DNA of 64,000 bases from Paracoccus haematequi. Lineage in GTDB: Bacteria > Pseudomonadota > Alphaproteobacteria > Rhodobacterales > Rhodobacteraceae. The notes under the pieces are model-generated. The model did not search any database. It was not told where the DNA came from and worked only from the letters and a program-made list of their open reading frames with translations. Numbering within the stretch: the stretch's first letter is position 1; the number at the start of each line of letters is the position of its first letter. The stretch spans positions 1-64,000 of the forward strand of contig NZ_UZWE01000021.1 in the NCBI RefSeq assembly GCF_900631945.1, given 5' to 3'. Of this stretch, positions 18,504 through 61,443 are shown piece after piece. Made by a program: the position numbers and the translations under genes.

Positions 18504-18961
18504 TGGGACAGCTTCGCCTTTCGATCGCGCTTGCCGCCTGTTTCTCTGCCAGCTTCGTGATGGCGCAGAACGTCCCGGAACTGTCCGGCCCGCAGCCCGA
18601 TCCGATGCGGTCGGTGCCCGCCGCGCCGATCGCGCAGTTCGTCACCGACGACGTGCGGCAGATGCGCGCCTATCCCGAACAGCCGCCGGTCATCCCCCAC
18701 TCGATCGAGGGCTATCAGCTGTCGGTCAACACCAACCGCTGCATGTCCTGCCACACCCGAGAAATGACCCGGGGGTCGGGCGCGCCGATGATCTCGATCA
18801 CCCATTACATGACGCGCGAGGCGCAGATGCTGGCCGACGTGTCGCCGCGCCGGTACTTCTGCACCCAGTGCCATGTGCCCCAGGCCGACGCCCCGGCGCT
18901 GATCGGCAACACCTTCACCGACATGTCCGAACTGGGCGCGACCGGCGCGGGGAGTGAGTGA
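18503..18961 (+). CDS. napB: diheme cytochrome c subunit NapB
   Basis: NapB is the small electron-transfer subunit of the periplasmic nitrate reductase. The 152-residue precursor has a signal peptide ending at VMAQ and two heme-binding motifs, CMSCH (residues 80-84) and CTQCH (120-124). Two further histidines nearby (HSIEGYQ, SITHYM) would be the distal axial ligands. The ATG at 18503 overlaps the napA stop by one base (TGATG); a GTG just before it is possible. The alternative of a lipoprotein signal (LAAC) is less likely. Confidence 0.96.
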
Positions 18962-18962
18962 G

Positions 18963-19652
18963 ATGCGCCGGATCCTGCAACCCTTCCGCTGGTTCTGGCG
19001 CGTCCTGTGGACCCCTGCGGGCACGCTGGGCCTGGGCTTCCTGACGCTGGGCGGCTTTCTGGGCGGGGTGATCTTCTGGGGCGCGTTCAACACCGCGCTG
19101 GAATTCACCAATACCGAGGGCTTCTGCATCTCGTGCCACGAGATGCGCGCCAACGTCTATGAAGAGATGTCGCGCACGGTCCATTACTCGAACCGTTCCG
19201 GGGTGCGGGCGGGCTGTCCGCAATGCCATGTGCCCCATGACTGGACGGACAAGATCGCCCGCAAGATGCAGGCCTCGAAAGAGGTCTGGGGCAAGGTCTT
19301 CGGCACCATCGACACGCGGCAGAAATTCCTGGAACACCGGCTGGTGATGGCCAAGCGCGAATGGGCGCGGCTGAAGGCGAACGACAGCCTGGAATGCCGC
19401 AACTGCCATTCCGCCATCGCGATGGACCTGGGGCGGCAGGCCCCGCGCGCGGCCGAAATCCATTCGACCTATCTGCTGTCGGGCGAACGCACCTGCATCG
19501 ACTGCCACAAGGGCATCGCCCACGAACTGCCCGACATGACCGGCATCGAACCCGGCTGGACCGTTCCCGCCGACCTTCAGGGAGAGACCCAGCCCGGCCT
19601 GACCCCCGCCGAGGAAATCCAGAGCTTCCTGCGCCAGGCGCCGGCGGAGTGA
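18963..19652 (+). CDS. napC: tetraheme cytochrome c quinol dehydrogenase NapC
   Basis: NapC is a membrane-anchored member of the NapC/NirT family that oxidises quinol and feeds NapB. The 229-residue protein has one N-terminal membrane helix (about residues 21-43) and four heme motifs: CISCH (55-59), CPQCH (85-89), CRNCH (145-149) and CIDCH (178-182). I choose the ATG at 18963; a GTG at 18954 that overlaps the napB stop is the alternative and would add three residues. It is the last gene of the operon, and a hairpin follows at 19753. Confidence 0.95.
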
Positions 19653-19752
19653 TACCGCCGCGCCCCCGGCGTTTCATCGCCGCATGGGGCAGCTTTCCCG
19701 ACTTTATCCTGCCACCGACCCGATCTGAGGCAGAGGCGGGTCCGCGCAGGCA

Positions 19753-19768
19753 CCCTGCGCCCGCAGGG
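19753..19768 (+). terminator. hairpin after napC
   Basis: CCCTGCG and CGCAGGG form a 7-base stem with a 2-base loop, followed by CGGAAAAATT; an overlapping alternative stem GCGCAGG/CCTGCGC sits at 19744-19760. It is a plausible terminator for the nap operon, though it lacks a T run. Confidence 0.4.
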
Positions 19769-19818
19769 CGGAAAAATTGGCGGCTAACCAGCAGAAGTCG
19801 CGCAAAAATTCCCTTTCA

Positions 19819-19876
19819 TTAATCTTTTGTTAATCATTTTCCGGCCAGAAGGTCCCGCTGCCCTGTTTTCGGGCAG
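19819..19876 (+). promoter_or_regulatory. AT-rich upstream region of the giant repeat-protein gene
   Basis: In an otherwise GC-rich window this stretch is AT-rich, with a direct repeat TTAATC at 19819-19824 and 19830-19835 spaced one helical turn apart. A hairpin with stem CTGCCC/GGGCAG at 19858-19876 lies just before the ATG at 19886. It probably holds the promoter and leader of the surface-protein gene. No factor can be named. Confidence 0.4.
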
Positions 19877-19885
19877 TGAAAGATC

Positions 19886-20015
19886 ATGGTTGAGTCGTCG
19901 ATGTCCAAAAACTTTGCCCGCAGTGTCCGCCGCAATTTCGCTTCTCACCGGGTCTTCTTCCAAGCATTTCTCTCGATCCTGCTGGGCTCCTGGCTCCTAG
20001 CTCCTGGCTTTCAGC
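19886..20015 (+). other. signal-peptide coding segment, out of frame with the giant repeat protein
   Basis: From the ATG at 19886 (or 19901) a basic N-terminus (KNFARSVRRNFASHR) is followed by a hydrophobic core (FFQAFLSILLGSWLL), clearly the start of an export signal. The frame then leaves the coding frame of the downstream 2648-codon gene by one base. Without the seven bases 19999-20005 it would read on as WLLAFSVQGAAAQA, a perfect signal-peptide end, and join the mature protein (VDWVVNV). This is the true 5' end of the following gene. Confidence 0.8.
19985..20005 (+). repeat. three near-tandem 7-base repeats
   Basis: GGCTCCT occurs at 19985-19991 and 19992-19998, and a one-base variant, AGCTCCT, at 19999-20005. 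Seven is not a multiple of three, so each copy gained or lost shifts the frame. The third copy creates a TAG (19998-20000) in the frame of the mature protein. Confidence 0.9.
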
Positions 20016-23000
20016 GTGCAGGGCGCTGCGGCGCAGGCGGTCGATTGGGTAGTCAACGTCAACGATTCGGCCTCGGATCCGTCGCCTGCGGGCGGGCTGA
20101 TCGATTATTCGATCCGCATCACCAATGACGGCTTCAACGCAGCGCCCGCGACCTCGCTGAGCCTGACGGTCCCCTCCGGCACGGTGCTAGAGGCCACGAC
20201 CGGGGCCATCACCGGCTGCGCGCCCCTGCCGGCGACGGGACCGGCCACGGTTTCCTGCCCCGTGCCCGCGCTGGCGGCGGGGGCGGACGTCAGCTTCACG
20301 GCGCATCTGCGCAGTTCGGTGCAGGGCACGATCACCTTTGGCGCCGCGGTCCCGGCCACTGCGGGCACGGCGACCGACACCCAGCCCGGCAACAACGCCG
20401 TGACCGAGAATACCAGCATCACCGCGGGCGCCGATATCGCGCTGGAGATGACCGGGCCGGATTCGGCGGCGGCCGGGTCTGTCGTGACCTACGCGCTGGC
20501 CGCGACGAACAACGGCCCCGATGCGGTCAGCAACCTGACGCTGACCTTCCCGGTCCCGACCGGCCTTGCCAACATCACCCCCCCGTCCGGCTGCACGCTG
20601 GTCGGCGGCACCTATCGCTGCGCCATCGCCGGTCCGGTCGCGGTCGGCGCGACGGTGACGCAGAACTTCCAGGCGCAGATCGTCGCGGCCTCCGGCTCGA
20701 CCATCACCCCGGCGGCCAGCATCGGCGGCGGTACGCCCAACGACCCGATCCCCGATAACAACGCCGCGCTGAAAAATACCGAGATTCAGGCCGGCAGCGA
20801 CCTGTCGATCGTCAAATCCCGCGCGCCTGCGGGCACGATCCTGGTGGGCGATCAGGTCACCTTCACGCTGACCCCGCGCTATTCCGGTGACAGCCCGCAG
20901 GGGATCACGGTCACCGACAGCCTGCCCGCGAATTACAGCATCGTCTCGGTCACGGCGCCGGGCTGGTCGGCGACCACGGCGGGCCAGACGGTGACGGCGA
21001 CCCGCGCTTCGGGCACCGGGTCAGGGGCGAATGTCGCGTTGGGGCCGATCACCATCGTCGCGCAGGCCGACACGCCGGGCAGCATCGTCAACACGGCGCA
21101 GATTTCGGCCGCGACCGCCGATCCGAACCCTGCCAACAACAGCGACGACGATGGCGGCGTGACCATCGAGGCGCCGCGCGTCGACCTCCGCGCCAACAAG
21201 AGGGGGCCGTCTCCGGCGCTGTATGTCGTGGGCCAGAACTATGATTTCGACATCAGCACCAGCAATGTCGGCAACGCGCCCTTCTCGGGCCAGTTGACCA
21301 TGACCGACCATCTGCCGGCCGGGATGACGGTGACGAGCGCCGCTCTGAACGGTTGGACATGTCCCGCCCTGCCGGTGGCCGGGCCCGCGAATCTGACCTG
21401 TACGCGGGACTATGCACCGGGCTCTCCGCTGGGCGTGGGCGCCCAGACGCCAATCGTAAGGCTGACCGCCACCGTGACGGATGCGGGGGCGCAGCCCAAC
21501 GGGCTGACGGTCGGTTCTCCCGACCTGCCGGACGAACAGAACACCGCCAACAACAGCATCACATTCGGCGGCACCGCGGCCCAGCCCGCCAACAGCGCCG
21601 ATCTGCGCGTCATCAAGACGGCCAACCTTGCGACCGTCGCCTCGGGCGACGAGATCCAGTTCACGCTGGAGATCGTCAATGACGGCCCGACCCAAGCGAC
21701 CTCGGTCGCGGTCACGGACGAGTTGACCGGGCTGATCAACAATGCCGCAGGGCCGGCTGCCGGCTTCGTCGGCTATTCGGTGACGAACGGCAGCGCGACC
21801 GGCCTGTCCTGCTCTTCGGCCAGCAGCGGGTCCACAGGCCGCCGCGCCACCTGCTCGATCGCCACGCTGCCGGTCTGCACGGCGGGAACTGGTGACTGCC
21901 CGCGCATCGTGCTGACCGTCCGGCCCGGCGGAGACGCGGGTTCGCGCACCAACACGGCCAGCGCGATGTCCGCCGACACGCCCGATCCGGTCCTTGGCAA
22001 TAATGCGGGCAGCGTCAGCCATGCCGTGACCGCGCGGACGGACGTGACCGTCAGCAAGGTCGCCATCTCCACCACTCCTCCGGCGGTGGGCCAGCCCTTT
22101 GAATATGTGATCACCGCACGCACCCTCAATAACGGGTTGTCGTCCGCTCAGAACGTCACCATCACCGATACGCTGCCCGCCGGAATGACTTTCATCTCGG
22201 CCACGCCCAGCAGCGGCAGCTGTTCGGTCAGGCCTGGGGCGAACACGACGACGGGGCCGGGCAACGACACCGTTACCTGCAACCTGGGCGTGATCGGCGT
22301 GAACGCGCAGCGCACGGCGACGATCCGGCTGCGGCCGAACCTGGGCCTGCAAGGCGGGACGGCGACCAACACCGTCGCCGTCTCGACCTCGACGGCCGAG
22401 ACCGACACCAGCAACAACGTCTTCTCGCTGGGAACCGTCATAGCCAATCCGCAGGTCGACCTTCTGATCAACAAGACCGACAGCGTCGATCCGCTGCCGG
22501 TGGGCGACAGTACGGTCTATCACCTCACCGTGACCAATTCCGGCCCTTCCGTGGCGACCAACGTGGTGGTGACGGACGACATGCCGACCGACCATATCGC
22601 CTATCAAAGCTATGCCGTGTCGGACGATGGCACCTGCGGCACGTTGCCCACGCCGGGAACGTCGGGCGGCAAGCTGATCTGCAGCTTCCCTGTGCTGGGG
22701 GTCAACGAAAGCCGCCGGATCGACATCACGGCCCAAGGCCTGTCCAAGGGCGTCCCCATGAACCGCGCCGCAGTCACCTCGGACGAGACGCAGGGCGGGT
22801 TCGAGCCCAACACCACGAACAATGCCACGCAGCAGGCAACGACGCTGCGCACCCGCGCCGATGTCGAGGTGGTCTCGAAGACCGCCACTCCGGCCACCGT
22901 CAACCTTCGTGATCCTTTCCAGTTCGTGATCGACGTCCGCAACAACAGCGGGGTCGGCCTGGACGAGGCCGACGATGTGGTCGTCACCGACAATCTGCCC

Positions 23001-26000
23001 AGCGGGACCGAGCTGATGGGCACCCCGACCGTCACCGTCACCAGCGGCACCGCCAGCACCGCGTCCTGCACGGGCAGTTCGGGGGCGACCAGCTTCAGCT
23101 GCCAACTGGGCACGATGAGCCCCGGCGCTACGGTCCGCATCGCCGCGCCGACGCGCGTGGTCACGGTGACCTCGACCGGGCAGGAATTCACCAACACCGC
23201 CAGCATCGACACCTCGTCCTTCGAGGCGGATCAGACGAACAACAGCAATTCCGGTATCGTGACCGTGGGCGCAAGCTCTCTGGCGGGGCGCGTGTTCCGC
23301 GACTTCGACAACAATGGCGCGCCGGATGCCGACGATACCGGAATTTCCGGTCTCAGCGTGACGCTGAGCGGCACGGCCTTCGACGGCACGCCGATCACCC
23401 GGACCGTATCGACCGCAGCGGATGGCAGCTATGCCTTCTTGGGCATCCCCGAGGGCACCTACAGCATCACCCATGCCGCCATCGGCGAGGCGCAGTTGCA
23501 AGACGGCGACACGACCGCAGGCAGCGCGGGCGGCACCACGGCGCCGACCACGATCAGCGGTATCGCGCTGCCTGCGGCGACGCCTGCGTCAGGCTATCTG
23601 TTCCCCAAGGTGCCGCAGGCCCTGATCGGCATCGCCAAGCACCGCAGCAGCGGGCCGCAGATCCAGGCCGATGGCAGCTTCACCGCAAGCTTCGGCCTGA
23701 CCGTCCGCAACCCCTCGCTGGAACCGCTGGAAGATATCCAGGTCACCGACCCGCTGGCCGGTGCCGCGCCCGCCTTCGGCAGCTTCGCGGCGCTGTCTGA
23801 TCCCGCGACCGATCCGCTGGCGCCCGGCAGCTACACCATCGTCGGGGCGCCTTCGGGAAGCTGCGGCGGGGCGAATGGCGGCTTCGACGGGGCCTCGGAC
23901 CGGGTGGTGGCCAGCGGCTTCACCCTGGCGGCGGGCGCGCAATGCAGCCTGTCCTTCCAGATCCGCGTGCGGCCCTCGGCGCCGATGCCGCCGGTCCAGG
24001 CCTCGGGCGGCAATTACGAGAACCTGGCCGATGTCGAGGGCACCGGCGCGCTGTCGGGCCAGACCCGCGCCACCAACCCGGACCTGGCCGACCGTTCGAA
24101 CAACGGCACGACGGTGCAGCCGGGCGTGGTCTCGCCGACGCCGCTGGCCCCGGCTTTCGCGCCGTCCCTGACGCTGGTGAAGACGGCCGATACCTCGGCC
24201 CTGTCCGCCCCGCCGGCGGTGGGCGACCGGATCACCTACAGCCTGACGGTGCAGAATACCGGCAACGTGACGCTGACGAATGTGGCGGTCACCGATCCGA
24301 TGCTGGGCGCGATCACTGGCAGCCCGCTGGCCTCTCTGGCGCCGGGCGCATCCCAGGTGCTGACCGCGAGTTATGATCTGACCCAGGCCGATCTGGACGC
24401 GGGCCGGGTCGAGAATACCGCGACGGCCGAAGGCGAGGCGCCGGACGGCAGCACGGTCGATGATGTTTCTGGCACGGACGCGACGAACGACGATCCGACC
24501 ATCACCAGCCTGACGGCGCAACCCGCGATCACGCTGGTCAAGGCGGCGGATGCCTCGGCGGTGTCCTCGCCAGCGGCGGTGGGCGACCGGATCACCTACA
24601 GCCTGACGGTGCAGAATACCGGCAACGTGACGCTGACGAATGTGGCGGTCACCGACCCGATGCTGGGCGCGATCACCGGCAGCCCGCTGGCCTCTCTGGC
24701 ACCGGGCGCGTCCCAGGTGCTGACCGCGAGCTATGATCTGACCCAGGCCGATCTGGACGCAGGCCGGGTCGAGAATACCGCGACGGCCGAAGGCGAGGCG
24801 CCGGATGGCAGCACCGTCGATGATGTTTCCGGCACGGACGCGACGAACGACGATCCGACCATCACCAGTCTGACGGCGCAGCCTGCGATCACGCTGGTGA
24901 AGACGGCGGATGCCTCGGCGGTGTCCTCGCCAGCGGCGGTGGGCGACCGGATCACCTACAGCCTGACGGTGCAGAATACCGGCAACGTGACGCTGACGAA
25001 TGTGGCGGTCACCGACCCGATGCTGGGCGCGATCACCGGCAGCCCGCTGGCCTCTCTGGCACCGGGCGCGTCCCAGGTGCTGACCGCGAGTTATGATCTG
25101 ACCCAGGCCGATCTGGACGCGGGCCGGGTCGAGAATACCGCGACGGCCGAAGGGGATACCCCGGACGGCGGCACGGTCGATGATGTTTCTGGCACGGACG
25201 CGACGAACGACGATCCGACCATCACCGGCCTGACGGCGCAGCCTGCGATCACGCTGGTCAAGACGGCGGATGACAGCGGCATCTCGACCCCCGCAGCGGT
25301 GGGCGACCCGATCACCTACAGCTTCACCGTGACCAATACCGGCAGCGTGACACTGAAGAACGTCGTGCTGACCGAATCGCTGGCCGGGGCGGTCGTGACC
25401 GGCGGCCCGATCGCCGCGCTGGCGCCGGGGGCGGTCGATGCGGCCAGCTTCACTGCGACCTATCGCCTGACCCAGGCCGATATCGACGCGGGCGAGGTCA
25501 GGAACAGCGCCACCGTGACCGGCACGCCCGACAGCGGCGGCCCCGTCTCGGACGTTTCGGGCACGACCGCCGGGGATGACGCGCCGACCCGTGTCACCAT
25601 CGCGCCCCAGACCGGGATCCGGCTGGTGAAGTCGCTGGCCGGGATCGAGGACAGCAACGGAAACGGCATCCAGGACATCGGCGATCTGGTCCGCTTCGGC
25701 TTTGAGGTGACCAATACCGGCAACGTCGCGCTGCGGGTCGAGACCATCGCGGATGCCACGGCCAGCGTGTCGGGCGGGCCGGTGACCATCGCGCCGGGCG
25801 CGACCAACCGGGGCAGCTTCACCGCCATCCACGTCCTGACGCAGGCGGACCTGGATCGCGGCCATGTGCAGAACAGCGCCTCGGTCGAGGGCCTTGCGGT
25901 GCGCGGCGACGGCAGCCCGATCCTGGGCAGCGACGGCGCGCTTCGGGCCAGCGACGTGTCGGACGCAGGGACCGATCCCGAAGGGGCGGCCGTGGGCGAT

Positions 26001-27962
26001 CCGGCGGCGGTAGAGACCCCCGACGGCGCGGGCGGGCGCGACGGCGATCCGGGCAACGACCCGACCGTGGCGCTCTTGACCCGCACGGCGGCGGTCGAAC
26101 TGATCAAGAGCTATCTCGACTTCACCGATGCCAACGGCAATGGCGTCGAGGATGCGGGCGATACGCTGCGCTTCGGCTTTGCCGTCACGAATACCGGCAA
26201 TGTCGCGCTGCGGATCGACACCATCGAGGATCCGCTGGCGGCGGTCGCGGGCGGACCCGTGACCCTGGCGCCGGGCGAAACCGACGCGGCGGCCTTTACC
26301 GCCACCTATCTGCTGACCGACGAGGACATGCAGCGCGGATATGTGCAGAATTCGGCCCGCGTCACCGGCCAGGCGGTCACGGCGGATGGCACGCCGATCC
26401 GCGACGGCCAGACGCCGCTGCGGGCCACCGATGTCTCGGACGCGGGCACCGATCCCGAAGGCGCGGCCCTGGACGATCCGCAGGCGGTGGAGACACCCGA
26501 TGGCGAGGACCGCACCGACGGCGACGGGACCAACGATCCCACCGTGGTCAAGCTGGGCTGGCCCGAGATTCTGCTGAAGATCTCGATTCTCGACACGCCC
26601 GACAGCAACGGCAACGGCATTTTCGACGCGGGCGACCGGATCGTCTATGCCTTCACCGTGACCAATACCGGCAACGTCCTGTTGGAGAATGTCACCGTCG
26701 ATCCGGCCAGCCTCAGCCTGGACCTGCCCGGATTCTCCTGTCAGCCGATCCGGCTTGAGGTGGGCGAAAGCGCGGTGCTGACCTGCACCGGCAACCTCTA
26801 TACCGTCACGCCCGAGGATGCGCGCCGCGGCACGATCAACCTGGCCGCGACCGCGACCGGCAGTTCCATCGCAGGTGTGCAGGCCTCGTCCGATCACGCG
26901 GTCGTCTCGCCCACGATGGAGGCGGGCGGGCTGACGCTGACCAAGACGGCAGATCGCAGCACCGCGCTGGCGGGCGATCTGGTCGGCTATGTGCTGGAGC
27001 TTGGCAACGACGCTTCGGGGATCGCCACGATCACCGATCTGGTCGACACGCTGCCTTCGGGCTTCAGCTATCGCTCGGGCAGCGGCACGGTCGGCGGCAG
27101 CAAGGTCGAGCCCGAGATCCAGGGCAACCGGCTGATCTGGCGCGACCTGCGGCTGGCGGCGGGGGAAACCCTCCGGGTGCGGATCGAGGTTCTGGTCGGC
27201 GGCGGCGTCGAGCCGGGCGCCTATGTGAACCGCGCGCAGGCCTTCAGCCCCGCCACCGGCCGGCCGGTGACGCCCGAGGCCACGGCCACCATCCGGGTCG
27301 AGGCCGATGCGGTCTTTGCCTGCGCGACGGTCATCGGCCGGGTCTTCGACGACCTCAACCACGACGGCTACTACAATGGCCAGCCGTCGCGGCAGAGCCT
27401 GCGTCCCGACCAAGGCAGGCTGCCCGCCGCCGAGGGGGCCGAACGGGGCCTGCCGGGCGTGCGGCTGGTGACGCCGAACGGGCTTGCGGTGACGACCGAC
27501 CGGCATGGCCGCTTCAGTCTGCCCTGCGCCGCCCTGCCGCGCGACATCGGCGCCAACTTCATGCTGAAGCTGGACGAACGCACGCTGCCGCTGGGCTATC
27601 GGCTGACCTCGGAAAATCCGCGCGTGGTGCGGCTGACGCCGGGGATGCTGACGAAGATGAACTTCGGGGCCACCCTGTCGCAGGTCGTGCGCGTGGATCT
27701 GTCGGCGCGCGCCTTCGACGGTCGCGACCTGCGCCCCGAGCTTGAGGCGGGCCTGCGCCAGCTGGTCGGCCAGATCGCGTCGAAGCCTTCGGTGCTGCGG
27801 CTGGGCTATCAGCTGCAACCGGGCGAGGCGAAGGGCGATGCCCGGTCCCGGTTGCGCCAGGTCGAGGCGGCGCTGCGCCGGTTGTGGCCTGCGAACGGCC
27901 GCTTTGCCCTGAATGTCGAGACGGCCGTGGAAACCGCTCCGGCCCGTGCGCGGAACCAGTAA
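20016..27962 (+). CDS. giant DUF11 / SdrD-B-like repeat surface protein
   Basis: A 2648-codon open frame from a GTG at 20016; the real start is probably 19886, in another frame. I count about 17 immunoglobulin-like DUF11 units, recognised by repeated patterns such as VTDPMLGAITGSPLASLAPG and a terminal NTA-type strand. An SdrD-B-like unit (GRVFRDFDNNGAPDADDTGISG) lies near residue 1090. Units about 1386-1745 are three almost identical 120-residue repeats. Later units contain calcium-site-like DSNGNGIQDIGD stretches. A second SdrD-B-like domain (GRVFDDLNHDGYYNG) near residue 2445 and a basic C-terminal segment end it. No sortase, type I or autotransporter signal is seen. Likely an exported adhesin or surface fibre, by analogy. 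It is followed two bases later by an outer-membrane protein gene. Confidence 0.8.
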   Translation: MQGAAAQAVDWVVNVNDSASDPSPAGGLIDYSIRITNDGFNAAPATSLSLTVPSGTVLEATTGAITGCAPLPATGPATVSCPVPALAAGADVSFTAHLRSSVQGTITFGAAVPATAGTATDTQPGNNAVTENTSITAGADIALEMTGPDSAAAGSVVTYALAATNNGPDAVSNLTLTFPVPTGLANITPPSGCTLVGGTYRCAIAGPVAVGATVTQNFQAQIVAASGSTITPAASIGGGTPNDPIPDNNAALKNTEIQAGSDLSIVKSRAPAGTILVGDQVTFTLTPRYSGDSPQGITVTDSLPANYSIVSVTAPGWSATTAGQTVTATRASGTGSGANVALGPITIVAQADTPGSIVNTAQISAATADPNPANNSDDDGGVTIEAPRVDLRANKRGPSPALYVVGQNYDFDISTSNVGNAPFSGQLTMTDHLPAGMTVTSAALNGWTCPALPVAGPANLTCTRDYAPGSPLGVGAQTPIVRLTATVTDAGAQPNGLTVGSPDLPDEQNTANNSITFGGTAAQPANSADLRVIKTANLATVASGDEIQFTLEIVNDGPTQATSVAVTDELTGLINNAAGPAAGFVGYSVTNGSATGLSCSSASSGSTGRRATCSIATLPVCTAGTGDCPRIVLTVRPGGDAGSRTNTASAMSADTPDPVLGNNAGSVSHAVTARTDVTVSKVAISTTPPAVGQPFEYVITARTLNNGLSSAQNVTITDTLPAGMTFISATPSSGSCSVRPGANTTTGPGNDTVTCNLGVIGVNAQRTATIRLRPNLGLQGGTATNTVAVSTSTAETDTSNNVFSLGTVIANPQVDLLINKTDSVDPLPVGDSTVYHLTVTNSGPSVATNVVVTDDMPTDHIAYQSYAVSDDGTCGTLPTPGTSGGKLICSFPVLGVNESRRIDITAQGLSKGVPMNRAAVTSDETQGGFEPNTTNNATQQATTLRTRADVEVVSKTATPATVNLRDPFQFVIDVRNNSGVGLDEADDVVVTDNLPSGTELMGTPTVTVTSGTASTASCTGSSGATSFSCQLGTMSPGATVRIAAPTRVVTVTSTGQEFTNTASIDTSSFEADQTNNSNSGIVTVGASSLAGRVFRDFDNNGAPDADDTGISGLSVTLSGTAFDGTPITRTVSTAADGSYAFLGIPEGTYSITHAAIGEAQLQDGDTTAGSAGGTTAPTTISGIALPAATPASGYLFPKVPQALIGIAKHRSSGPQIQADGSFTASFGLTVRNPSLEPLEDIQVTDPLAGAAPAFGSFAALSDPATDPLAPGSYTIVGAPSGSCGGANGGFDGASDRVVASGFTLAAGAQCSLSFQIRVRPSAPMPPVQASGGNYENLADVEGTGALSGQTRATNPDLADRSNNGTTVQPGVVSPTPLAPAFAPSLTLVKTADTSALSAPPAVGDRITYSLTVQNTGNVTLTNVAVTDPMLGAITGSPLASLAPGASQVLTASYDLTQADLDAGRVENTATAEGEAPDGSTVDDVSGTDATNDDPTITSLTAQPAITLVKAADASAVSSPAAVGDRITYSLTVQNTGNVTLTNVAVTDPMLGAITGSPLASLAPGASQVLTASYDLTQADLDAGRVENTATAEGEAPDGSTVDDVSGTDATNDDPTITSLTAQPAITLVKTADASAVSSPAAVGDRITYSLTVQNTGNVTLTNVAVTDPMLGAITGSPLASLAPGASQVLTASYDLTQADLDAGRVENTATAEGDTPDGGTVDDVSGTDATNDDPTITGLTAQPAITLVKTADDSGISTPAAVGDPITYSFTVTNTGSVTLKNVVLTESLAGAVVTGGPIAALAPGAVDAASFTATYRLTQADIDAGEVRNSATVTGTPDSGGPVSDVSGTTAGDDAPTRVTIAPQTGIRLVKSLAGIEDSNGNGIQDIGDLVRFGFEVTNTGNVALRVETIADATASVSGGPVTIAPGATNRGSFTAIHVLTQADLDRGHVQNSASVEGLAVRGDGSPILGSDGALRASDVSDAGTDPEGAAVGDPAAVETPDGAGGRDGDPGNDPTVALLTRTAAVELIKSYLDFTDANGNGVEDAGDTLRFGFAVTNTGNVALRIDTIEDPLAAVAGGPVTLAPGETDAAAFTATYLLTDEDMQRGYVQNSARVTGQAVTADGTPIRDGQTPLRATDVSDAGTDPEGAALDDPQAVETPDGEDRTDGDGTNDPTVVKLGWPEILLKISILDTPDSNGNGIFDAGDRIVYAFTVTNTGNVLLENVTVDPASLSLDLPGFSCQPIRLEVGESAVLTCTGNLYTVTPEDARRGTINLAATATGSSIAGVQASSDHAVVSPTMEAGGLTLTKTADRSTALAGDLVGYVLELGNDASGIATITDLVDTLPSGFSYRSGSGTVGGSKVEPEIQGNRLIWRDLRLAAGETLRVRIEVLVGGGVEPGAYVNRAQAFSPATGRPVTPEATATIRVEADAVFACATVIGRVFDDLNHDGYYNGQPSRQSLRPDQGRLPAAEGAERGLPGVRLVTPNGLAVTTDRHGRFSLPCAALPRDIGANFMLKLDERTLPLGYRLTSENPRVVRLTPGMLTKMNFGATLSQVVRVDLSARAFDGRDLRPELEAGLRQLVGQIASKPSVLRLGYQLQPGEAKGDARSRLRQVEAALRRLWPANGRFALNVETAVETAPARARNQ
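24181..25260 (+). repeat. three 360-base tandem repeats within the surface-protein gene
   Basis: Exact 360-base periodicity: copies begin at 24181, 24541 and 24901, with a diverged fourth from 25261. Copies 2 and 3 are identical over about 187 bases (24544-24730 against 24904-25090), while copies 1 and 3 agree in places where copy 2 differs (for example the T at 24371 and 25091 against C at 24731). The near-identity at DNA level, including silent sites, points to recent duplication or gene conversion. Confidence 0.95.
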
Positions 27963-27963
27963 G

Positions 27964-30900
27964 ATGGCGAATTTTCCTATCATGAACCCGATTGCTTCCT
28001 TCCGTCTGACGGCCTGTTCCGCCCTGGCGCTGATCCTGTCGCTGCAATCCACGCTGGCGGATCCGGCCGGCAGCCGGGGCTGCGCGCTGATCCAGGGCGA
28101 GTTGCCCGGCGACTGCGCCCATGACAATGCGGGCACCGTCGTCTCGCGCGAGCTGCCGGCCAATGCCCGGCACGAACCGGCGGGCGACCTGGGGCCGCTG
28201 GGCTTCTCGATCTCGATCGAGGCGACCCCGGCCGAGCCGCGCCGAACCGTCGCGGGCGCGGCCCCGGCGCCCGACCGGCTGCGCGAGATGGACCAGGATC
28301 TGGACCGGCTGGGACTTAGGGTCAGCGTCGACGGGCTGGGCGCGCGGCCGATCCTGAACGTGGCGACCGCGGATCTGCGCAGCAGCTATGGTCCGGGGCA
28401 GGCGGTGGTGTTCCGAACCTCGTCGAACTATCCGGGCTGGATCGCGCGGGCGCAGGTGATCGTCATCGATCCCGACCGCCCCGGCCATCCGCTGGCGGTG
28501 CTGCCCGCATCGCCGAACGGGCTGACCGAATGGCGGATGCCCGCCGAGGGTCCGGAGGAGATGACCTATGTTCTGCGGGTCGAGGACCGCGAGGGACGGC
28601 GCGACGAGACCGTGCCCCTGCCGCTGCGGCGCGCCTCGGCCGTCCTGGAGGGCGCGGATCTGACCGGCCCAATCATCGCGCCCGGCGAGGGCGAGGACCG
28701 CACCGCCCGGCGCGGCATCCCGGTCCATGGCGCGGTGGTCACCGTCTCGGGCGAGGATCTGCCCGCCGGGGCGCGGCTGACCGTGCTGGGCGAACCGGCG
28801 ATCCCCGATGCCGGCGGCCGCTTCGTGCTGCAACGCATCCTGCCGCCTGGCGAACATGACCTGCGCATCGCGATGGGCGACCAGGCCCAGACCCGCCACG
28901 TCACCGTCCCGCAGCGCGAGCTGTTCGCGACCGGCATCGCCGAGATCACCCTGGGTCGCGACCAGGTCAGCGACGAGACCTGGCGCTATGGCCGGGTGGC
29001 GGGCTTCGTCCAGGGCGTGCTGGCCGACGGGACCAAGGTGACGGCCTCGGTCGATACCCGCGATACCGAACTGCGCGACATGTTCCGCCATGTGACGCGG
29101 CGCTTCCCCGACCAGGTGCTGCGCCAGATCGAGGACCGCGACGTCTGGGTCACGACCGGCGACGACAGCACGGTCGAGAACCTGGCGCCGACCTCGGGGC
29201 GGCTGTTCGTGCGGCTGGAAAACGACCAGAGCTATGCGATGTGGGGCGATTTCCGCCCCGAGGGCGATCTGGACCGGATGGTGCGCAGTGACCGCACACT
29301 CTACGGCGCCTCTGCCGGGTGGCGTTCGGCCGAGACGGCCGCCGATGGCAGTCCACGGCAGAAGATCGGCGCCTATGCGGCCTCGACCGACCGGCTGAGC
29401 CAGCGCGACGTGTTCCGCGGCACCGGCGGCAGCGCCTATTTCCTGTCCCACCGCGACATCGAGGCGGGAACCGAAACGCTGATGGTCGAAATCCGCGACC
29501 GGGTCTCGAATACCATCGTGTCGTCCCGCCGCCTGGTCGAGGGGCGGGACTATCGCATCGACTATGTGCAGGGCGTGGTGATCCTGAACGGGCCCTTGTC
29601 GCCCTCGGCGGGCGGTCCGGGGCTGGTCAGCGACAGCGCCCTGGGGGACCAACTGGTCAATCTGGTCGCGCAATACGACTATGTCCCGGCGAACGGCGCG
29701 GATTCCAGCGACAGCTATGGCGCGCGGGCCGAAAGCTGGGTCACGCCGCGTCTGCGCTTTGGCGCCACGCTGGCGCAGGAAGGGGCAGGGGGCGCCGACA
29801 ACCGTCTGGGCGGCGCCGACCTGCTGTGGAAGCGCAGCGAGGACAGCTGGTTCTCGGCCGAACTGGCCGAGAGCGAGGGACCGGGCCTGGGCCAGGCCCT
29901 GTCTCTGACCGGCGGGCTGGATCTGGATCCGGCCAGCCCCACGGCGGGCGTCAAGGGGCTGCGCGCAAGGGGGATGCATGTCGAGGGGCGGCTGGATCTT
30001 GCCGAAATCGGCGGCGCGGGCCATGTCACCGCCTTCTGGGATCGCCGGGACGAAGGCTTCGTCTCGCCCGACTGGAACGTGACGGTGGGCCAGCGCAGCG
30101 GCGGTCTGGACGGCCGGGTCGAGATCGGCGGCGCGACTGCCCTGACCTTCGGCGCCACCCGGTTCCGCGACGATGCGGGCAAGCGCGACGACCGCGAACG
30201 CATCGGGATCGACCACTGGCTGAGCGGCGCCTGGCAGGTCGAGGCCGAGATCGCGCGTCGCGACCTGGCCAATCCCACGGCCCTGGTCCAGGGAGAGAAC
30301 GGCAAGTCCACCGACGCCGCCCTGCGCCTGACCTGGCATCGCGACGAGGATCTGTCGGCCTGGGTCTTCGGGCAGGCGAACCTGTCGCGGTCGGGCGATG
30401 TGCTGCGCGACGACCGAGTGGGGATCGGCGCCGAGGCCGCGGTCACAGATCGGCTCAGCGCGCTGTCCGAGGTGTCGGACGGCACCCAGGGCGTCGCCGG
30501 GCGGCTGGAACTGGCCTGGGCCAAGGATGCCGCCACGACCTATACGCTGGGCTGGCGCGAAGATCCGACGCAGATCGACAACCTCGCCAGCGGCGAGCGG
30601 CGCGGCCTGACCTTCGGCGCGCAGCGGCAGGTCAACGACCGCTGGGCCTATACGACCGAGACGATCCGCAGCGGCGTCACCAGCCGCCGGTCGCTGGCCT
30701 CCAGCTATGGCGTCAGCTACACGCCGGACGAACGCTGGCGCCATGATGTCGGGGTGGTCACCGGCCGGACGCTGGAACAGGACGGCAGCCGGATGCGGCG
30801 CACCGGCCTGTCGCTGGGCACCCAGTTCTCGAACGGCGAGGATCAGGCGGCCAGCCTGCGCGGCGAATGGCGGCGCGAACGGTCGGACGACGCGCTGCAA

Positions 30901-31542
30901 CCGATCCGCCGCAAGACCTGGATGGTCACGGGCGATTTCACCTATCGCACCAATGACGACTGGCGCCTGGTGGGGGAACTGGACACGGTGATCTCGACGG
31001 GCGAGGACGACCTGCGCGACGGCCGCTATATCGAGGCGATGCTAGGCTACGCCTATCGCCCGGTCCATGACGACCGGCTGAACGCGCTGTTCAGCTATAC
31101 CTATCTGGAGGATCTGCCGGGGGCCGATCAGGTCAATATCGACGGCGAGACGGACGGGCCGCGCCAGCGCAGCCATATCCTGAACGCGGCCTTCAGCTAT
31201 GACCTGGACCAGCGGTGGACGCTGGGCGGCAAATACGGCTTCCGCACCCGCCAGCAGGCCGACCGGGACGATTCGGATTTCACCCGTTCCACCGCGCATC
31301 TGGCGGCGCTGCGGGCCGATTACCGCATCGTGCATCGCTGGGACGCCATGGCCGAGATCCGCGCCTTCCACGCGCCCCGCGCCGAGATGACCGAATATGG
31401 CGCGCTGCTGGCCGTCTATCGCGAGGTCACGCCCCATGCCCGGCTGGGGGTGGGCTATGCCTGGGGCGGCATCTCGGACGACCTGCGCAAGATCGAACCG
31501 GCCAAGCGGGGGATCTTCGTGAACCTGATCGGCAAGTTCTGA
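27964..31542 (+). CDS. probable outer-membrane beta-barrel protein, partner of the giant repeat protein
   Basis: A 1192-residue exported protein: a signal peptide (SALALILSLQSTLADP) is followed by an N-terminal soluble part with Ig-like or carboxypeptidase-regulatory-like segments (GRFVLQRILPPGEHDLRIA, and YRIDYVQGVVILNGPL near residue 540). The second half has alternating polar/hydrophobic strands rich in Tyr, Trp and Arg and ends in phenylalanine (NLIGKF), both typical of outer-membrane barrels. It begins 2 bases after the repeat-protein stop, so the genes form an operon and the barrel may export or anchor the repeat protein. I do not recognise a named family. An ATG at 27982 is an alternative start. 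Confidence 0.75.
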   Translation: MANFPIMNPIASFRLTACSALALILSLQSTLADPAGSRGCALIQGELPGDCAHDNAGTVVSRELPANARHEPAGDLGPLGFSISIEATPAEPRRTVAGAAPAPDRLREMDQDLDRLGLRVSVDGLGARPILNVATADLRSSYGPGQAVVFRTSSNYPGWIARAQVIVIDPDRPGHPLAVLPASPNGLTEWRMPAEGPEEMTYVLRVEDREGRRDETVPLPLRRASAVLEGADLTGPIIAPGEGEDRTARRGIPVHGAVVTVSGEDLPAGARLTVLGEPAIPDAGGRFVLQRILPPGEHDLRIAMGDQAQTRHVTVPQRELFATGIAEITLGRDQVSDETWRYGRVAGFVQGVLADGTKVTASVDTRDTELRDMFRHVTRRFPDQVLRQIEDRDVWVTTGDDSTVENLAPTSGRLFVRLENDQSYAMWGDFRPEGDLDRMVRSDRTLYGASAGWRSAETAADGSPRQKIGAYAASTDRLSQRDVFRGTGGSAYFLSHRDIEAGTETLMVEIRDRVSNTIVSSRRLVEGRDYRIDYVQGVVILNGPLSPSAGGPGLVSDSALGDQLVNLVAQYDYVPANGADSSDSYGARAESWVTPRLRFGATLAQEGAGGADNRLGGADLLWKRSEDSWFSAELAESEGPGLGQALSLTGGLDLDPASPTAGVKGLRARGMHVEGRLDLAEIGGAGHVTAFWDRRDEGFVSPDWNVTVGQRSGGLDGRVEIGGATALTFGATRFRDDAGKRDDRERIGIDHWLSGAWQVEAEIARRDLANPTALVQGENGKSTDAALRLTWHRDEDLSAWVFGQANLSRSGDVLRDDRVGIGAEAAVTDRLSALSEVSDGTQGVAGRLELAWAKDAATTYTLGWREDPTQIDNLASGERRGLTFGAQRQVNDRWAYTTETIRSGVTSRRSLASSYGVSYTPDERWRHDVGVVTGRTLEQDGSRMRRTGLSLGTQFSNGEDQAASLRGEWRRERSDDALQPIRRKTWMVTGDFTYRTNDDWRLVGELDTVISTGEDDLRDGRYIEAMLGYAYRPVHDDRLNALFSYTYLEDLPGADQVNIDGETDGPRQRSHILNAAFSYDLDQRWTLGGKYGFRTRQQADRDDSDFTRSTAHLAALRADYRIVHRWDAMAEIRAFHAPRAEMTEYGALLAVYREVTPHARLGVGYAWGGISDDLRKIEPAKRGIFVNLIGKF

Positions 31543-31552
31543 CCCCCCTTCG

Positions 31553-31590
31553 GCAGGCCGCGACGCCCTTCCGGCGGCGCTGCGGCCTGC
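31553..31590 (+). terminator. possible terminator after the outer-membrane protein gene
   Basis: A 9-base inverted repeat (GCAGGCCGC / GCGGCCTGC) with a 20-base loop starts 11 bases after the stop codon. It lacks a T run. The rest of 31543-31822 holds no gene I can support; if the next gene really ends at 32092, the gene-free stretch is 31543-32091. Confidence 0.4.
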
Positions 31591-31822
31591 AACTCCTCGC
31601 CCCCGGCCTCCGGCCGCCTGGCCCAGGCATGCGGCAGGCCGGGCGCAGGCCCAACCTCTCCCGGATCGGGGTGACACCGACCGGCGCGGCCCGTCTCGTT
31701 CTGCGACGAGACCCGGCCCGCTCTCTCTGGCCACCCCCGCTCTGAACGGATTATTCCTGACTGGATGCAGGAAAGGTGCTGCCCAATCCGCCGTGGCAGA
31801 TGCTGCCGGGTGAAGGCAATGC

Positions 31823-33664
31823 CTACCGCGTCGAGGCCGCGACCTTCGCGGTCGCCATCACGGGCCGCTGGGTTTCGTCGGGCTGGTCGCGCCGACATCC
31901 GGCAGGACTGTGGCTGGGACCGGATTGCCGGCTGATCCTGCCAATCGCGGCGCTTCGCGGACGGGTGCCGTGCGCGACCCTGGCCCCAGGCCGGGACGCG
32001 GCGCCGCGAATTGCTGGACCGAGGGCCGGGTGCCGCCCGCCGGGCAGGGGCAAGGCTGACCTGATGAAGGGGCGATCCGGGCTGAGGCCTCTCAGTGCCC
32101 GCCGCCGCCCGCCGCCCCGCGGGCGGGGGGGCTTCATCGCCAGGGCCATCACGGCAAGGCCCACGAACAGCATCGTCAGCAGGGTGAACACGTCGATGAA
32201 GGACATGATCGTGGCCTGCTGCGCCACCCGTCCCGCCATCTGCGCCAGGGCGCCGTCAACGGGCAGGCCGTGGCTGGCCAGGTTGCGCTGCATCATCTCA
32301 AGCTGGCTCAGCGCCTGCGGGTTGGCCCAGGTCACGGATTCGTCCAGTCGGGCGGTGTGCAGTGCGCGGCGGTCGGTCAGCACGGTATTGATCATCGCCA
32401 GCCCGACCGCCCCGCCCAGGTTGCGCATCAGGTTGTAAAGCCCGGACGCGCCCTTCATCTTGGCGGGCGGCAGCGTGCCCAGAGCCAGGTTGTTGATCGG
32501 AACCATGCAGATCATCAGCGACAGGCCGCGCAGCACCTGCGGCCAGAACAGTTCCTGAAAGTCCCAATCGGCGGTCATGCCGGTCAGCATCCAGGACGAA
32601 ATCCCGAAGCCGACGAAGCCGCACAGCAGCATCAGGCGCAGATCCATCCTCGACGCCAGGATCCCGGCCAGCGGCGCCGACACGAACATCGCCAGCCCCG
32701 AGACGAACACCGTCTCGCCGATCATCAGGCTGTCATAGCCCCGGATCGCCGAGAGATAGAGCGGATAGAGATAGGTCATCCCGTAAAGCCCGATCCCCAT
32801 CACGAAGGAAAACACCGATCCGACCGCGAAATTGGTGTTCGCGAAGGCCGAGAAATCCACCAGCGGCTCGTCGCGGGTGAAGGCGCGCCAGAAGGTAACA
32901 ATGCCGCCCAGGACCATCACCACGAACAGGATCGCCACGGCCTCGTCCTGGAACCAGTCGTTGCCGGGCCCTTCCTCCAGCACGAATTCCATCGCGCCCA
33001 GGAAGGCCGCCAGGGCGACCAGGCCGGTCCAGTCGAACTTGCCCCACAACGACCATTCCGGCTTGTCGAAATCCACAAGCGCCAGAACGCCCAGGGTGAC
33101 GGCGATCCCGGCGGGGACGTTGACCAGGAACAGCCAGTGCCAGGACAGCGCATGGCTGAGATATCCGCCCACCGTCGGTCCCACCGTGGGCGCCAGCGTC
33201 GCCACCAGCCCGATCATGGGCGAGACGACGTTGCGCTTCGCGGGCGGAAAGATCGTGAAGGCGGCGGCAAACACGGACGGGATCATGCCGCCGCCCAGAA
33301 ACCCCTGGACGCCGCGCCACAGGATCATCTCGTTGATGGACGACGAGGTGGCGCACAGGAAGGACGCCGCCGTGAACCCCGCCGCCGAAATGGCGAACAG
33401 GTATCGCGTCGACATCATCCGGCCCAGGAATCCCGACAGCGGGATCATCACCACCTCGGCGATCAGATATGAGGTCTGCACCCAGGAGATTTCGTCCGAG
33501 GAGGCGCCCAGCCCTGCCTGGATTTCCGGCAGCGATGCCGAGACGATCTGGATGTCCAGGATCGCCATGAACATGCCGAAGACCATGATGAAGAAGGCGG
33601 CGACCCGGCGCGGCGTCAGTTCGGGCGCGGCGGCCTGATCGGCAGGGGCGGCGGGGGCGGCCAT
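31823..33664 (-). CDS. DHA2-type MFS multidrug efflux permease (EmrB-like)
   Basis: A 613-codon reading of a 14-helix drug:proton antiporter of the EmrB/QacA type. The N-terminal VFGMFMAILDIQIVSASLPE (motif D1-like), WVQTSYLIAE and LAPTVGPTVGGYLS (antiporter motif C-like) segments are clear. Homology should end near 32092: the last 90 or so residues are basic and unlike the family. In a run of seven Gs (32125-32131), removing one base gives MKPPARGAAGGGGH and a stop at 32092-32094, a normal end. So the extended tail is probably a frameshift, real or technical. It starts right after the adaptor gene's stop and would form a tripartite pump with it and an outer-membrane channel encoded elsewhere. 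Confidence 0.9.
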   Translation of the reverse strand: MAAPAAPADQAAAPELTPRRVAAFFIMVFGMFMAILDIQIVSASLPEIQAGLGASSDEISWVQTSYLIAEVVMIPLSGFLGRMMSTRYLFAISAAGFTAASFLCATSSSINEMILWRGVQGFLGGGMIPSVFAAAFTIFPPAKRNVVSPMIGLVATLAPTVGPTVGGYLSHALSWHWLFLVNVPAGIAVTLGVLALVDFDKPEWSLWGKFDWTGLVALAAFLGAMEFVLEEGPGNDWFQDEAVAILFVVMVLGGIVTFWRAFTRDEPLVDFSAFANTNFAVGSVFSFVMGIGLYGMTYLYPLYLSAIRGYDSLMIGETVFVSGLAMFVSAPLAGILASRMDLRLMLLCGFVGFGISSWMLTGMTADWDFQELFWPQVLRGLSLMICMVPINNLALGTLPPAKMKGASGLYNLMRNLGGAVGLAMINTVLTDRRALHTARLDESVTWANPQALSQLEMMQRNLASHGLPVDGALAQMAGRVAQQATIMSFIDVFTLLTMLFVGLAVMALAMKPPRPRGGGRRRALRGLSPDRPFIRSALPLPGGRHPALGPAIRGAASRPGARVAHGTRPRSAAIGRISRQSGPSHSPAGCRRDQPDETQRPVMATAKVAASTR

Positions 33665-34813
33665 CTATCCGGCGGCGGCCAGGGCCGCGTCGGGGCCGGT
33701 GCGGGTGTCGATCTCGACCTCGACCGACAGGCCCGCGCGCAGGCCGGGCGTGCCTTCGGGCAGTTCGATCCGAACCGGCACGCGCTGCACGATCTTGGTG
33801 AAATTGCCGGTCGCGTTCTCGGCCGGCAGCAGGGAAAACACCGCGCCGGTGGCAGGGGCGACCGGCACCACGCGGCCCTCGATCGCGGGGCCGTCGAAGG
33901 CATCGACGGACAGGTGGGCGGTCTGGCCCGCGCGAACCTCGGCCAGTTGGGTTTCCTTCAGGTTGGCCTCGACATAGAGGCCCTGGTCGGGGACCACCGC
34001 CGCCAGCCGCGCGCCCGCGCTGACCAGTTCGCCCTGCTTGATGGCGATGTTGGCGACAGTGCCGTCAAAGGGCGCGCGCAGCGTGGTGAAATCCAGATCG
34101 CGCTGCGCCTGCGCCACGGCCAGTTCCAGGGCGCGCCGGGTCGCCCCGGCCTCGGCCCGCTGGGCCTTCAGCACCTCGACCTGGGCAAGGGCGCCCGCGA
34201 TGGCGGCATTCGCGGCGTTGCGGTTGGCCTCGGCCGTGGCCAGGGATTCGTTGGCGTCGTCAAGATCGGCCTGCGATGTCACGCGCCGCCCCGCCAGATC
34301 GCGCGCCCGTTCGGCCGAGGCGCGCGCGGCCGTCAGCACCGCGTCGGATGCGGCAAGCTGCGCCTTCGCCTGGTCCACGCCGCTTTCCGCCGCAGCGACC
34401 TGCGCGTCGATCCGCGCCAGCGTGCTGGACAGCTCCGTCAGCCGGGCCTGCGCCTGTTCCAGGGCGATGCGGTGATCGCCGTCGTCGATGCGCAGCAGCA
34501 CCTCGCCCGCCCGGACATGCTGGTTCGCCGAAACCGGAATATCGGCGACATAGCCGGTGATCTTGGCCGAGATCAGCGACAGATCCGCCTGCACATAGGC
34601 ATCGTCGGTCGAGACCAGGAACCGCCCCTGGGACCACCAGTGCCAGCCCTCGTATCCCCCCGCCAGCAGGGCTGCCGCCGCCAGCCCGGCCAGGATCCGC
34701 ATCTTGCGGCCCTTCGGGGCAGCGGCCTGGGCCTTGGGGGATTCCGAACCGGGCGTGTCGGCGTCGGGCGGGGTTACGGGCCGGGGGGCCTCGGGACGTT
34801 CGTGGCGTGACAC
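33665..34813 (-). CDS. HlyD/EmrA-type periplasmic adaptor of an efflux pump
   Basis: A 382-residue membrane-fusion protein. A cytoplasmic N-terminus rich in proline is followed by one membrane helix (about residues 38-55), then the lipoyl-like domain (STDDAYVQADLSLISAKITG), a long alpha-helical hairpin rich in alanine and glutamine (about 110-215), and the second half with TLRAPFDGTV and ATGNFTKIVQRVPVRI, which are EmrA signatures. Start is a GTG at 34813. It lies directly upstream of the EmrB-like permease and is divergent from a TetR gene with twin operators in between. Confidence 0.9.
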   Translation of the reverse strand: MSRHERPEAPRPVTPPDADTPGSESPKAQAAAPKGRKMRILAGLAAAALLAGGYEGWHWWSQGRFLVSTDDAYVQADLSLISAKITGYVADIPVSANQHVRAGEVLLRIDDGDHRIALEQAQARLTELSSTLARIDAQVAAAESGVDQAKAQLAASDAVLTAARASAERARDLAGRRVTSQADLDDANESLATAEANRNAANAAIAGALAQVEVLKAQRAEAGATRRALELAVAQAQRDLDFTTLRAPFDGTVANIAIKQGELVSAGARLAAVVPDQGLYVEANLKETQLAEVRAGQTAHLSVDAFDGPAIEGRVVPVAPATGAVFSLLPAENATGNFTKIVQRVPVRIELPEGTPGLRAGLSVEVEIDTRTGPDAALAAAG

Positions 34814-34838
34814 TGATGCTCACCCTGCGCTGGGGACA

Positions 34839-34856
34839 TCGAACCATCCGGTTCGA
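34839..34856. promoter_or_regulatory. TetR-type operator, copy 1
   Basis: The inverted repeat TCGAACC-ATCC-GGTTCGA lies 25 bases upstream of the adaptor gene start. An identical pair of half-sites with a different 4-base centre occurs 60 bases away (34899-34916). The divergent TetR regulator is the obvious candidate to bind. Confidence 0.75.
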
Positions 34857-34898
34857 AGCGCCGAAATAACCCGTCGCGGCGCGGTTTTCAATATTCCA

Positions 34899-34916
34899 TC
34901 GAACCCCCCGGTTCGA
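34899..34916. promoter_or_regulatory. TetR-type operator, copy 2
   Basis: The inverted repeat TCGAACC-CCCC-GGTTCGA sits 14 bases upstream of the tetR ATG, probably over its core promoter. It would let the regulator repress itself as well as the pump. Confidence 0.75.
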
Positions 34917-34930
34917 TTAAAATCGAAATC

Positions 34931-35596
34931 ATGACAGACGATCCGCGCCGACCTGACGATACCCCCCCACGCCGCCACGCCGCCGGAGAGGATCCGCAGA
35001 AGCGCGGCCAGATCCTGGCGGGGGCCTGGCAGGAATTCATGGCCAAGGGCTTTGACGCCGCCACGATGAACGGCATCTGCCGCGCGGCGGGCGTGTCCAA
35101 GGGGACGCTGTATGTCTATTTCCGCAACAAGGAGGATCTGTTCGTGGCCCTGGTCGAACACCGCCGGGTCCAGATCTCTGAACAGCTGCGCGCCGCCCTT
35201 GCCGTCCCCGGCGGGATCGAGGCGCGGCTGACCGCCTATGCCGCCGCGATCATCCGAATGCTGACCTCGGCCGAGGTGCTGCGGTCGCAGCGGATCGTGG
35301 TGGCGATGGCCGAACGGATGCCAGACCTGGCGCGCCGCTTCTATGACGCCGGGGCGCGCCAGGTGCTGAACGGCCTGGGCCGCTGGCTGACCGAGGCCGA
35401 GGAGGCGGGCCTTCTGCGCATCCCCGATGCCGAACGCGCGGCCCACCAGTTCGTGGAACTGGCCACGGCGGGGGTCTGGCGGCAATATCTGTTCGGCCTG
35501 CGCAGCGATCCTCCCCGTCAAGGGGAAATCGACGCCCTTGCGGCGGATGCCGTGCGGATCTTCATGGCGGCCCACCGTTCCCCGCCCGCGGGTTAG
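34931..35596 (+). CDS. TetR-family transcriptional regulator
   Basis: A 221-residue TetR repressor. The N-terminal helix-turn-helix is clear (GFDAATMNGICRAAGVSKGT followed by LYVYFRNKEDLF), after a charged leader of about 20 residues. The C-terminal ligand domain resembles those of efflux-pump regulators (AefR/AcrR-like, with the RLIVVA-type helix seen as QRIVVAMAERMPDLARRF). It is divergent from the EmrAB-like pump, with two matching operators in the 117-base gap. It likely represses both itself and the pump until an inducer binds. Confidence 0.92.
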   Translation: MTDDPRRPDDTPPRRHAAGEDPQKRGQILAGAWQEFMAKGFDAATMNGICRAAGVSKGTLYVYFRNKEDLFVALVEHRRVQISEQLRAALAVPGGIEARLTAYAAAIIRMLTSAEVLRSQRIVVAMAERMPDLARRFYDAGARQVLNGLGRWLTEAEEAGLLRIPDAERAAHQFVELATAGVWRQYLFGLRSDPPRQGEIDALAADAVRIFMAAHRSPPAG

Positions 35597-61005: not shown

Positions 61006-61443
61006 ATGGCCGTTCCGCTTGCTTTCCTGATCGGGCTGGTCTTTGGAACCGGGATCATGATCTCGGGCATGGCGAACCCCGCCAAGGTATTGAATTTCTT
61101 CGACATCGCCGGAACCTGGGATCCGTCTCTGGCCTTCGTGATGGGCGGCGCGCTGACCGTGGCCCTGATCGGCTATCGCATCGTGTTGCGGCGGCCCCGG
61201 CCGGTGCTGGACACCTGCTTCCACCTGCCGACGCGGCGCGACATCGACCCCGCGCTGATCGGCGGTTCGGCGCTGTTCGGGGTCGGCTGGGGGATCGCGG
61301 GTTTCTGCCCCGGCGGGTCGATCCCCGCGCTTGGCCTGCTGCGCCCCCAGGCGGCGGTGTTCGTCTGCGCGATGCTGGCGGGCATGGCGATCGCCCGCAG
61401 GCTGCGCGCCCGCCGCGCCGCGCCGCGACCCAGGCTGTCCTGA
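61006..61443 (+). CDS. YeeE/YedE-type sulfur transport protein, second half
   Basis: A 145-residue membrane protein homologous to the second half of YeeE/YedE (DUF6691-type). The conserved cysteine is in WGIAGFCPGGSIPALG. It starts 2 bases after the first half and ends the operon, convergent with the sigma-54 gene with 13 bases between stops. Confidence 0.9.
   Translation: MAVPLAFLIGLVFGTGIMISGMANPAKVLNFFDIAGTWDPSLAFVMGGALTVALIGYRIVLRRPRPVLDTCFHLPTRRDIDPALIGGSALFGVGWGIAGFCPGGSIPALGLLRPQAAVFVCAMLAGMAIARRLRARRAAPRPRLS

Follow-up and report, generated by a model that had tools for sequence, protein, structure and literature searches.

Results

Layout of the locus

The window, a 64,000-nucleotide stretch of the Paracoccus haematequi genome (a 110-contig draft of 4.1 Mb), carries on its forward strand a giant open reading frame of 2,648 codons (positions 20016 to 27962). 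This frame begins with a GTG, has no signal peptide and, by domain search, contains DUF11 in 12 stretches, DUF7507 in 7 and SdrD_B. It is open throughout, with no further lesion seen. A second gene follows on the same strand (27979 to 31542; ATG at 27982, longest open reading frame 27913 to 31542) and encodes a partner protein of 1,187 residues, with a signal peptide recognised by eye and a C-terminal stretch that matches Phenol_MetA_deg (28.5 bits against a cut-off of 22), which we take to be an outer-membrane-barrel family; comparison of the partner with solved structures gave no significant match. The approximately 11.5 kb of downstream coding sequence contains no other lesion. Nitrate reductase genes lie just upstream; the names napA and napC, given here, are proposed from their domains (molybdopterin oxidoreductase and NapC/NirT) and annotations. 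A promoter scan revealed no promoter-like site, and a search of the same genome for a paralogue that might be a source of the array described below or a back-up copy returned the gene itself as its sole match.

Two other features of this region were observed. Inside the giant gene, among the DUF7507 repeats, a 360-bp unit is repeated 3.3 times with 93% matches (24171 to 25360), and the copy number of this unit may change by recombination. Beyond the partner, a region of about 4 kb (31551 to 35515) has no match of more than 200 nt in the corresponding stretch of the closest relative, G090 (matches of 200 nt or less were left out of this comparison), while its flanks align at 93 to 96%; it includes an EmrB-type DHA2 efflux gene on the minus strand (31823 to 33664).

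A heptamer array lies between the leader and the giant frame

A short open reading frame of 80 codons (19886 to 20128, forward strand; alternative ATG at 19901) aligns with the in-frame leaders of the relatives G090 and G014. From 19886 it reads MVESSMSKNFARSVRRNFASHRVFFQAFLSILLGSWLLAPGF... and ends at a stop codon at 20126 to 20128. From either start, the leader has the basic beginning and hydrophobic core of a signal peptide, and downstream of the array it is in the wrong frame for the giant protein. Direct reading of positions 19985 to 20009 on the forward strand gives GGCTCCT (19985 to 19991), a second GGCTCCT (19992 to 19998), a variant AGCTCCT (19999 to 20005) and a partial GGCT (20006 to 20009); Tandem Repeats Finder reports the same interval with period 7, 3.6 copies and 88% matches. 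The array is therefore a tandem repeat of a unit that is not a multiple of three, placed in the 5' coding region among the signal-peptide codons. A TAG (19998 to 20000, forward strand), formed with the variant base of copy three, shuts the giant frame upstream. An earlier, sequence-only reading of this DNA had described the two successive frames, the two perfect heptamers with their variant and the TAG in the giant frame, and each was recovered when the sequence was read again. Its further statement, that removal of the third copy repairs the signal peptide, also agrees with our frame reading, in which loss of the variant copy alone gives the frame found in relatives.

Arrays were scored when at least 16 of 18 positions matched the base seven further on, with shorter periods excluded. 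By this measure the array is the only one of period 7 in 605,764 bases of the same genome, sampled as 41 pieces and amounting to about 15% of its 4.10 Mb, and control periods of 4, 5, 8, 10 and 11 gave one array, of period 5, in the same bases. A 4-Mb sequence from an order-5 Markov model, in which codon structure is not reproduced, contained two period-7 arrays. The exact motif GGCTCCTGGCTCCT has a single occurrence in the whole genome. Because of these counts in the genome and in random sequence, such an array is to be seen as uncommon genome-wide, yet not remarkable; it is the position that gives it importance. Stronger evidence against chance comes from the nearest relative, G090, which has exactly 7 nt fewer.

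Relatives lack the additional seven nucleotides

When 125 genomes of the genus were searched at the DNA level, 38 gave matches. Five of these were real homologues by score (the window, G090, G106, G014 and G041); the other 33 were short matches of less than 54 bits and were set aside. The closest relative, G090, is 91% identical, with 914 bases against 921 in the window. In a multiple alignment, a 7-nt gap lies opposite the array in G090, G106 and G014, and the gain relative to each is exactly one 7-nt unit. The leader of G090 has the in-frame reading MVESSISKNFARSVRRYFASHRVFFQTFLSILLGCSLLAFSVQGAAAQAVDW and leads on to the mature protein, without a change of frame, as ...LLAFSVQGAAAQAVDW. In 28 of 28 relatives, all read by eye rather than by a signal-peptide program, a signal-peptide-like leader shares the frame of the mature start. 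Since the closest relative is exactly 7 nt shorter and every one of these leaders is in frame, the window most likely carries a real, lineage-specific +7 frameshift.

No comparable period-7 array (16 of 18 positions) was found within 240 nt around the mature start in any of the 28 relatives; the best self-match at this period was 14 of 18, in G257, with 11 in G090 and 10 in G014. The tract is thus not conserved in orthologues. Partial 7-periodicity is nonetheless seen in G090 and G014, where the orthologous 18 nt are 7-periodic at 7 and 9 of 11 positions, respectively, and may represent the starting point for slippage. Among the aligned relatives there is no perfect ancestral form with two copies in frame. 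With the array aligned on copies 2 and 3, its 18 bases differ from G090 at 4 positions; the upstream flank differs at 6 of 99 and the downstream flank at 25 of 300.

The gene is patchily distributed. By protein search, and with the own genome included, the N-terminal domain was detected in 7 of 125 genomes at the level of the genus, 15 of 394 at that of the family, 15 of 390 at that of the order (a set that partly shares genomes with that of the family) and 1 of 385 at that of the class, this one being the own genome; it was also present in 2 of 3 and 3 of 32 genomes of two more genera. A search for a second strain of the species found none: in a plasmid collection, from which own or very near records may be left out, no record covers 80% of positions 18900 to 22000, and the best 20 of 136 matches to this interval involve the nap part only. 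A protein search of the same collection found four distant relatives, and a scan of genome contigs (own or very near records may again be left out) found one, from Celeribacter naphthalenivorans.

The partner gene was detected in 12 of the 125 genomes of the genus against 7 for the giant gene, the own genome being counted in both. Of 21 additional genomes with a giant gene that were tested, all 21 have a partner homologue, and in all 20 loci followed from end to end the partner lies directly downstream of the giant gene. In Rhodobacteraceae the giant gene thus recurs with a barrel-like partner such as the 1,187-residue protein at 27979 to 31542 (the window and L104 to L138). We infer from this pairing that the two genes form a surface module. 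The label of adhesin goes beyond what is shown, namely the DUF11, DUF7507 and SdrD_B domains, the first of these in 12 stretches, and an export signal that is in frame in the relatives and out of frame in the window.

Substitutions point to recent constraint on the giant gene and its partner

Synonymous (S) and nonsynonymous (N) substitutions between the window and G090 were placed on a branch only where the outgroups G106 and G014 agree, over 1,335 S and 3,600 N sites; the comparison covers the part of the giant gene retained in G090, which is 6.1 kb short. For the giant and partner genes together, the window branch has 56 S and 31 N substitutions and the G090 branch 27 S and 42 N (Fisher p = 0.002), with 81 S and 39 N unassigned. 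The difference between branches is seen for the giant gene alone (18 S and 15 N against 6 S and 18 N, p = 0.03) and for the partner alone (p = 0.02). The N-terminal part of the giant gene taken by itself (12 S and 12 N on the window branch) gives a weaker sign of constraint. For comparison, napA shows 61 S and 11 N and napC 18 S and 7 N, with no indels. Selection thus seems to have acted on the two genes in the window during the greater part of the period after the split, and the copies in G090 to have decayed. This signature (N/S 31/56 against 42/27) suggests that the +7 lesion is recent.

Lesions in other copies of the module

We judged 20 loci, the window and 19 relatives, chosen as those in which the giant gene and its partner share one contig; the nine relatives G183, G234, G278, G365, G583, G696, G746, G751 and G764 were not judged (contig ends, partial length or later discovery). 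Both genes are open in 15 of the 19 relatives, and the giant gene is broken in 5 of the 20 loci. In G411 (L143 / L037; C8, about position 61,430) the frame is lost in a run of six G lying approximately 25 codons past the signal peptide, and is otherwise open to the end, as a frame of 2,330 codons homologous from codon 83. In G709 (L154 / L099; C1, near 442,480) a single TGA falls in frame some 60 codons after the mature start, at a position that is a cysteine in the window and close relatives, with the remaining 2,288 codons open; this lesion is a substitution and is not at a repeat. The G090 copy (L054, 4551 to 9655) is a wreck, in which the giant gene lacks 6.1 kb and the partner about 0.4 kb, with several frame-breaking indels, and the partner is broken as well. 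In G009 (L141; apparently the P. alcaliphilus plasmid NZ_CP067126.1) the giant gene is recognisable at its two ends only, with 3.1 kb without a match between them, and the partner is open. In the three giant genes with single lesions (the window, G411 and G709), the break always falls among roughly the first 120 of some 2,300 to 2,700 codons, with the remainder open; under uniform placement P is approximately 1e-4 for three such early lesions, a value that concerns only three cases and a pattern noticed after the fact.

Discussion

Our results suggest that a giant gene that was under selection until recently has been put out of frame by the gain of a single heptamer in its signal-peptide codons. 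We favour the explanation that this is a young slipped-strand duplication, with the giant gene OFF and a possible low rate of reversal, and consider it reasonably probable, although well short of established. Replication slippage, in the lineage leading to the sequenced strain, would have duplicated a 7-nt unit that by chance was present in about 2.6 copies among the signal-peptide codons. With the resulting +7, the export signal would no longer share the frame of a giant, putatively Sec-exported surface protein with DUF11 repeats. The gene would then be OFF in this strain, as the leader peptide is predicted to end at 80 codons and the giant frame to be left with no usable signal peptide. As purifying selection appears to have acted on the giant gene and its presumed outer-membrane partner until recently, the OFF allele is probably young. 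Reversion might occur, as at other three-copy microrepeats, at a rate that is low but not nil. One observation counts against a young and simple duplication: the third copy has a G to A change, where identical copies would be expected, and at least one further change must therefore have occurred with or after the duplication.

Among the known systems closest to this locus are microrepeats of few copies; our comparisons draw on parts of the cited reports. In Pseudomonas putida, three copies of CTGG in lacI form a slippage hotspot for insertions and deletions (PMC3485313). As in the window, this is a three-copy, non-triplet microrepeat in coding DNA in which a change of one unit inactivates the gene and for which slippage is the proposed cause; unlike the window, the unit is of 4 nt in three tandem copies and its mutation was measured under selection, whereas ours is of 7 nt and includes one variant copy (PMC3485313). 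By this analogy, the +7 would work like a slippage-hotspot mutation. A three-copy 6-bp repeat in mutL is similarly short, with function set by copy number, but its unit is a multiple of three and causes no frameshift. Conversion of this repeat was observed both ways in derivatives of a mutator strain, and in non-mutator Salmonella none was detected among more than 10,000 colonies (PMC2955026).

It is also possible, but rather unlikely in our estimation, that the array is a true contingency locus with high-frequency ON/OFF switching of the giant gene, and that the assembly caught an OFF cell. The sequence-only reading had seen here the classic layout of a phase-variable adhesin. Part of this description stands: a 7-nt unit breaks the frame in the 5' coding region, within the signal peptide, of a large putative surface-protein gene that is otherwise intact, and the in-frame form is found in relatives. 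Heptamers in the 5' coding region of neuO in Escherichia coli K1 set the frame by copy number in just this manner (PMC13001214). Moreover, all window copies have a C at position 5 of the unit, and the corresponding bases are G and T in G090 and G and G in G014; one substitution spread through an earlier expansion and contraction would explain the shared C, but so could two independent substitutions. The remainder of the description is not supported, as the locus lacks two features of established phase-variable loci, namely at least three uninterrupted identical units and conservation of the tract. There are only two identical copies followed by a variant, and a survey of Haemophilus influenzae counted heptamers only at more than two (from three) uninterrupted units (PMC2651432). 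None of the 28 relatives has a comparable array, and no second allele was seen in the collections searched. A contraction between copies 1 and 2 would retain the variant base, so the TAG would stay in the giant frame; reversal of the +7 is thus possible but handicapped, since the frame seen in relatives comes back only on loss of the variant copy. Support for a dedicated phase-variable switch is therefore only partial.

The established heptamer loci also differ from the window in scale and placement. The neuO gene has 3 to 53 repeats, shows measured polymorphism and encodes a capsule-modifying enzyme rather than a giant surface protein (PMC13001214). The hmw1A and hmw2A genes of H. influenzae resemble the window in having heptamers at large surface adhesins. 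In strain PittAA, hmw1A has 14 heptamers inside its 7.3-kb open reading frame, with a frameshift, but these sit 3.5 kb into the gene and not in the signal peptide, and the other hmw1A and hmw2A heptamers considered in the part of that report used here are in promoters, in 13 to 38 copies, and tune transcription (PMC2651432). Tandem repeats in promoters have also been treated for Mycobacterium tuberculosis (PMC12817950).

A broader proposal is that in Rhodobacteraceae the modules of a giant DUF11 exoprotein and its outer-membrane partner serve for bet-hedging, each being silenced by one early lesion, in some cases at a microrepeat present by chance. The window would then show a contingency locus being born from ordinary leucine-rich signal-peptide codons, with at least one earlier cycle of expansion and contraction. 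We regard this proposal as distinctly doubtful.

A fixed pseudogene, in a clade that no longer needs the gene and with the +7 as its first disabling lesion, is an explanation to which we would give only a small chance. The extensive decay of the sister species G090 in both genes, the giant gene of G009, recognisable at its two ends only, and the presence of the gene in so few genomes of the genus point in this direction. However, the N/S ratio of the window branch is significantly below that of the G090 branch, and the giant and partner genes are otherwise fully open in the window. The sole difference between a fixed pseudogene and the young, possibly reversible duplication is whether reversion matters.

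Two further explanations seem to us very improbable. A sequencing or assembly error, the other alternative of the sequence-only reading, might be suspected in a draft of 110 contigs. Usual sequencing reads are longer than 25 bp, and the array, at 25 bp, fits within them; its extra copy is not identical to its neighbours, which is not expected from stutter or graph errors, and because of these two properties an error is unlikely. The neighbouring napA and napC, in addition, have no indel relative to G090. Continued production of the protein, by a +1 ribosomal slippage past the array (for example at TTT C, 20009 to 20012) or from the internal GTG at 20016, is no more credible than such an error: a +1 shift at any point from 20001 to 20125 would bring the two frames together, but on our reading there is no stop codon at the shift site, no Shine-Dalgarno-like purine run precedes 20016, the product from that GTG would have no signal peptide, and the plain in-frame leaders of the 28 relatives give no hint of a programmed shift site.

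We return to a young duplication by slippage as the preferred explanation. Nothing here shows a working on/off switch, although the change, which looks like a recent copying slip, could in principle reverse. A limited search of the titles and abstract openings of the open-licence literature found no switch of this kind described for Paracoccus or Rhodobacteraceae. If other strains of the species prove not to be in frame, the +7 would be an ordinary recent loss, and a warning that an out-of-frame start may lead annotation to overlook or mislabel a giant exported protein; if they are in frame, the emergence of a frameshift switch out of ordinary coding sequence would become observable.
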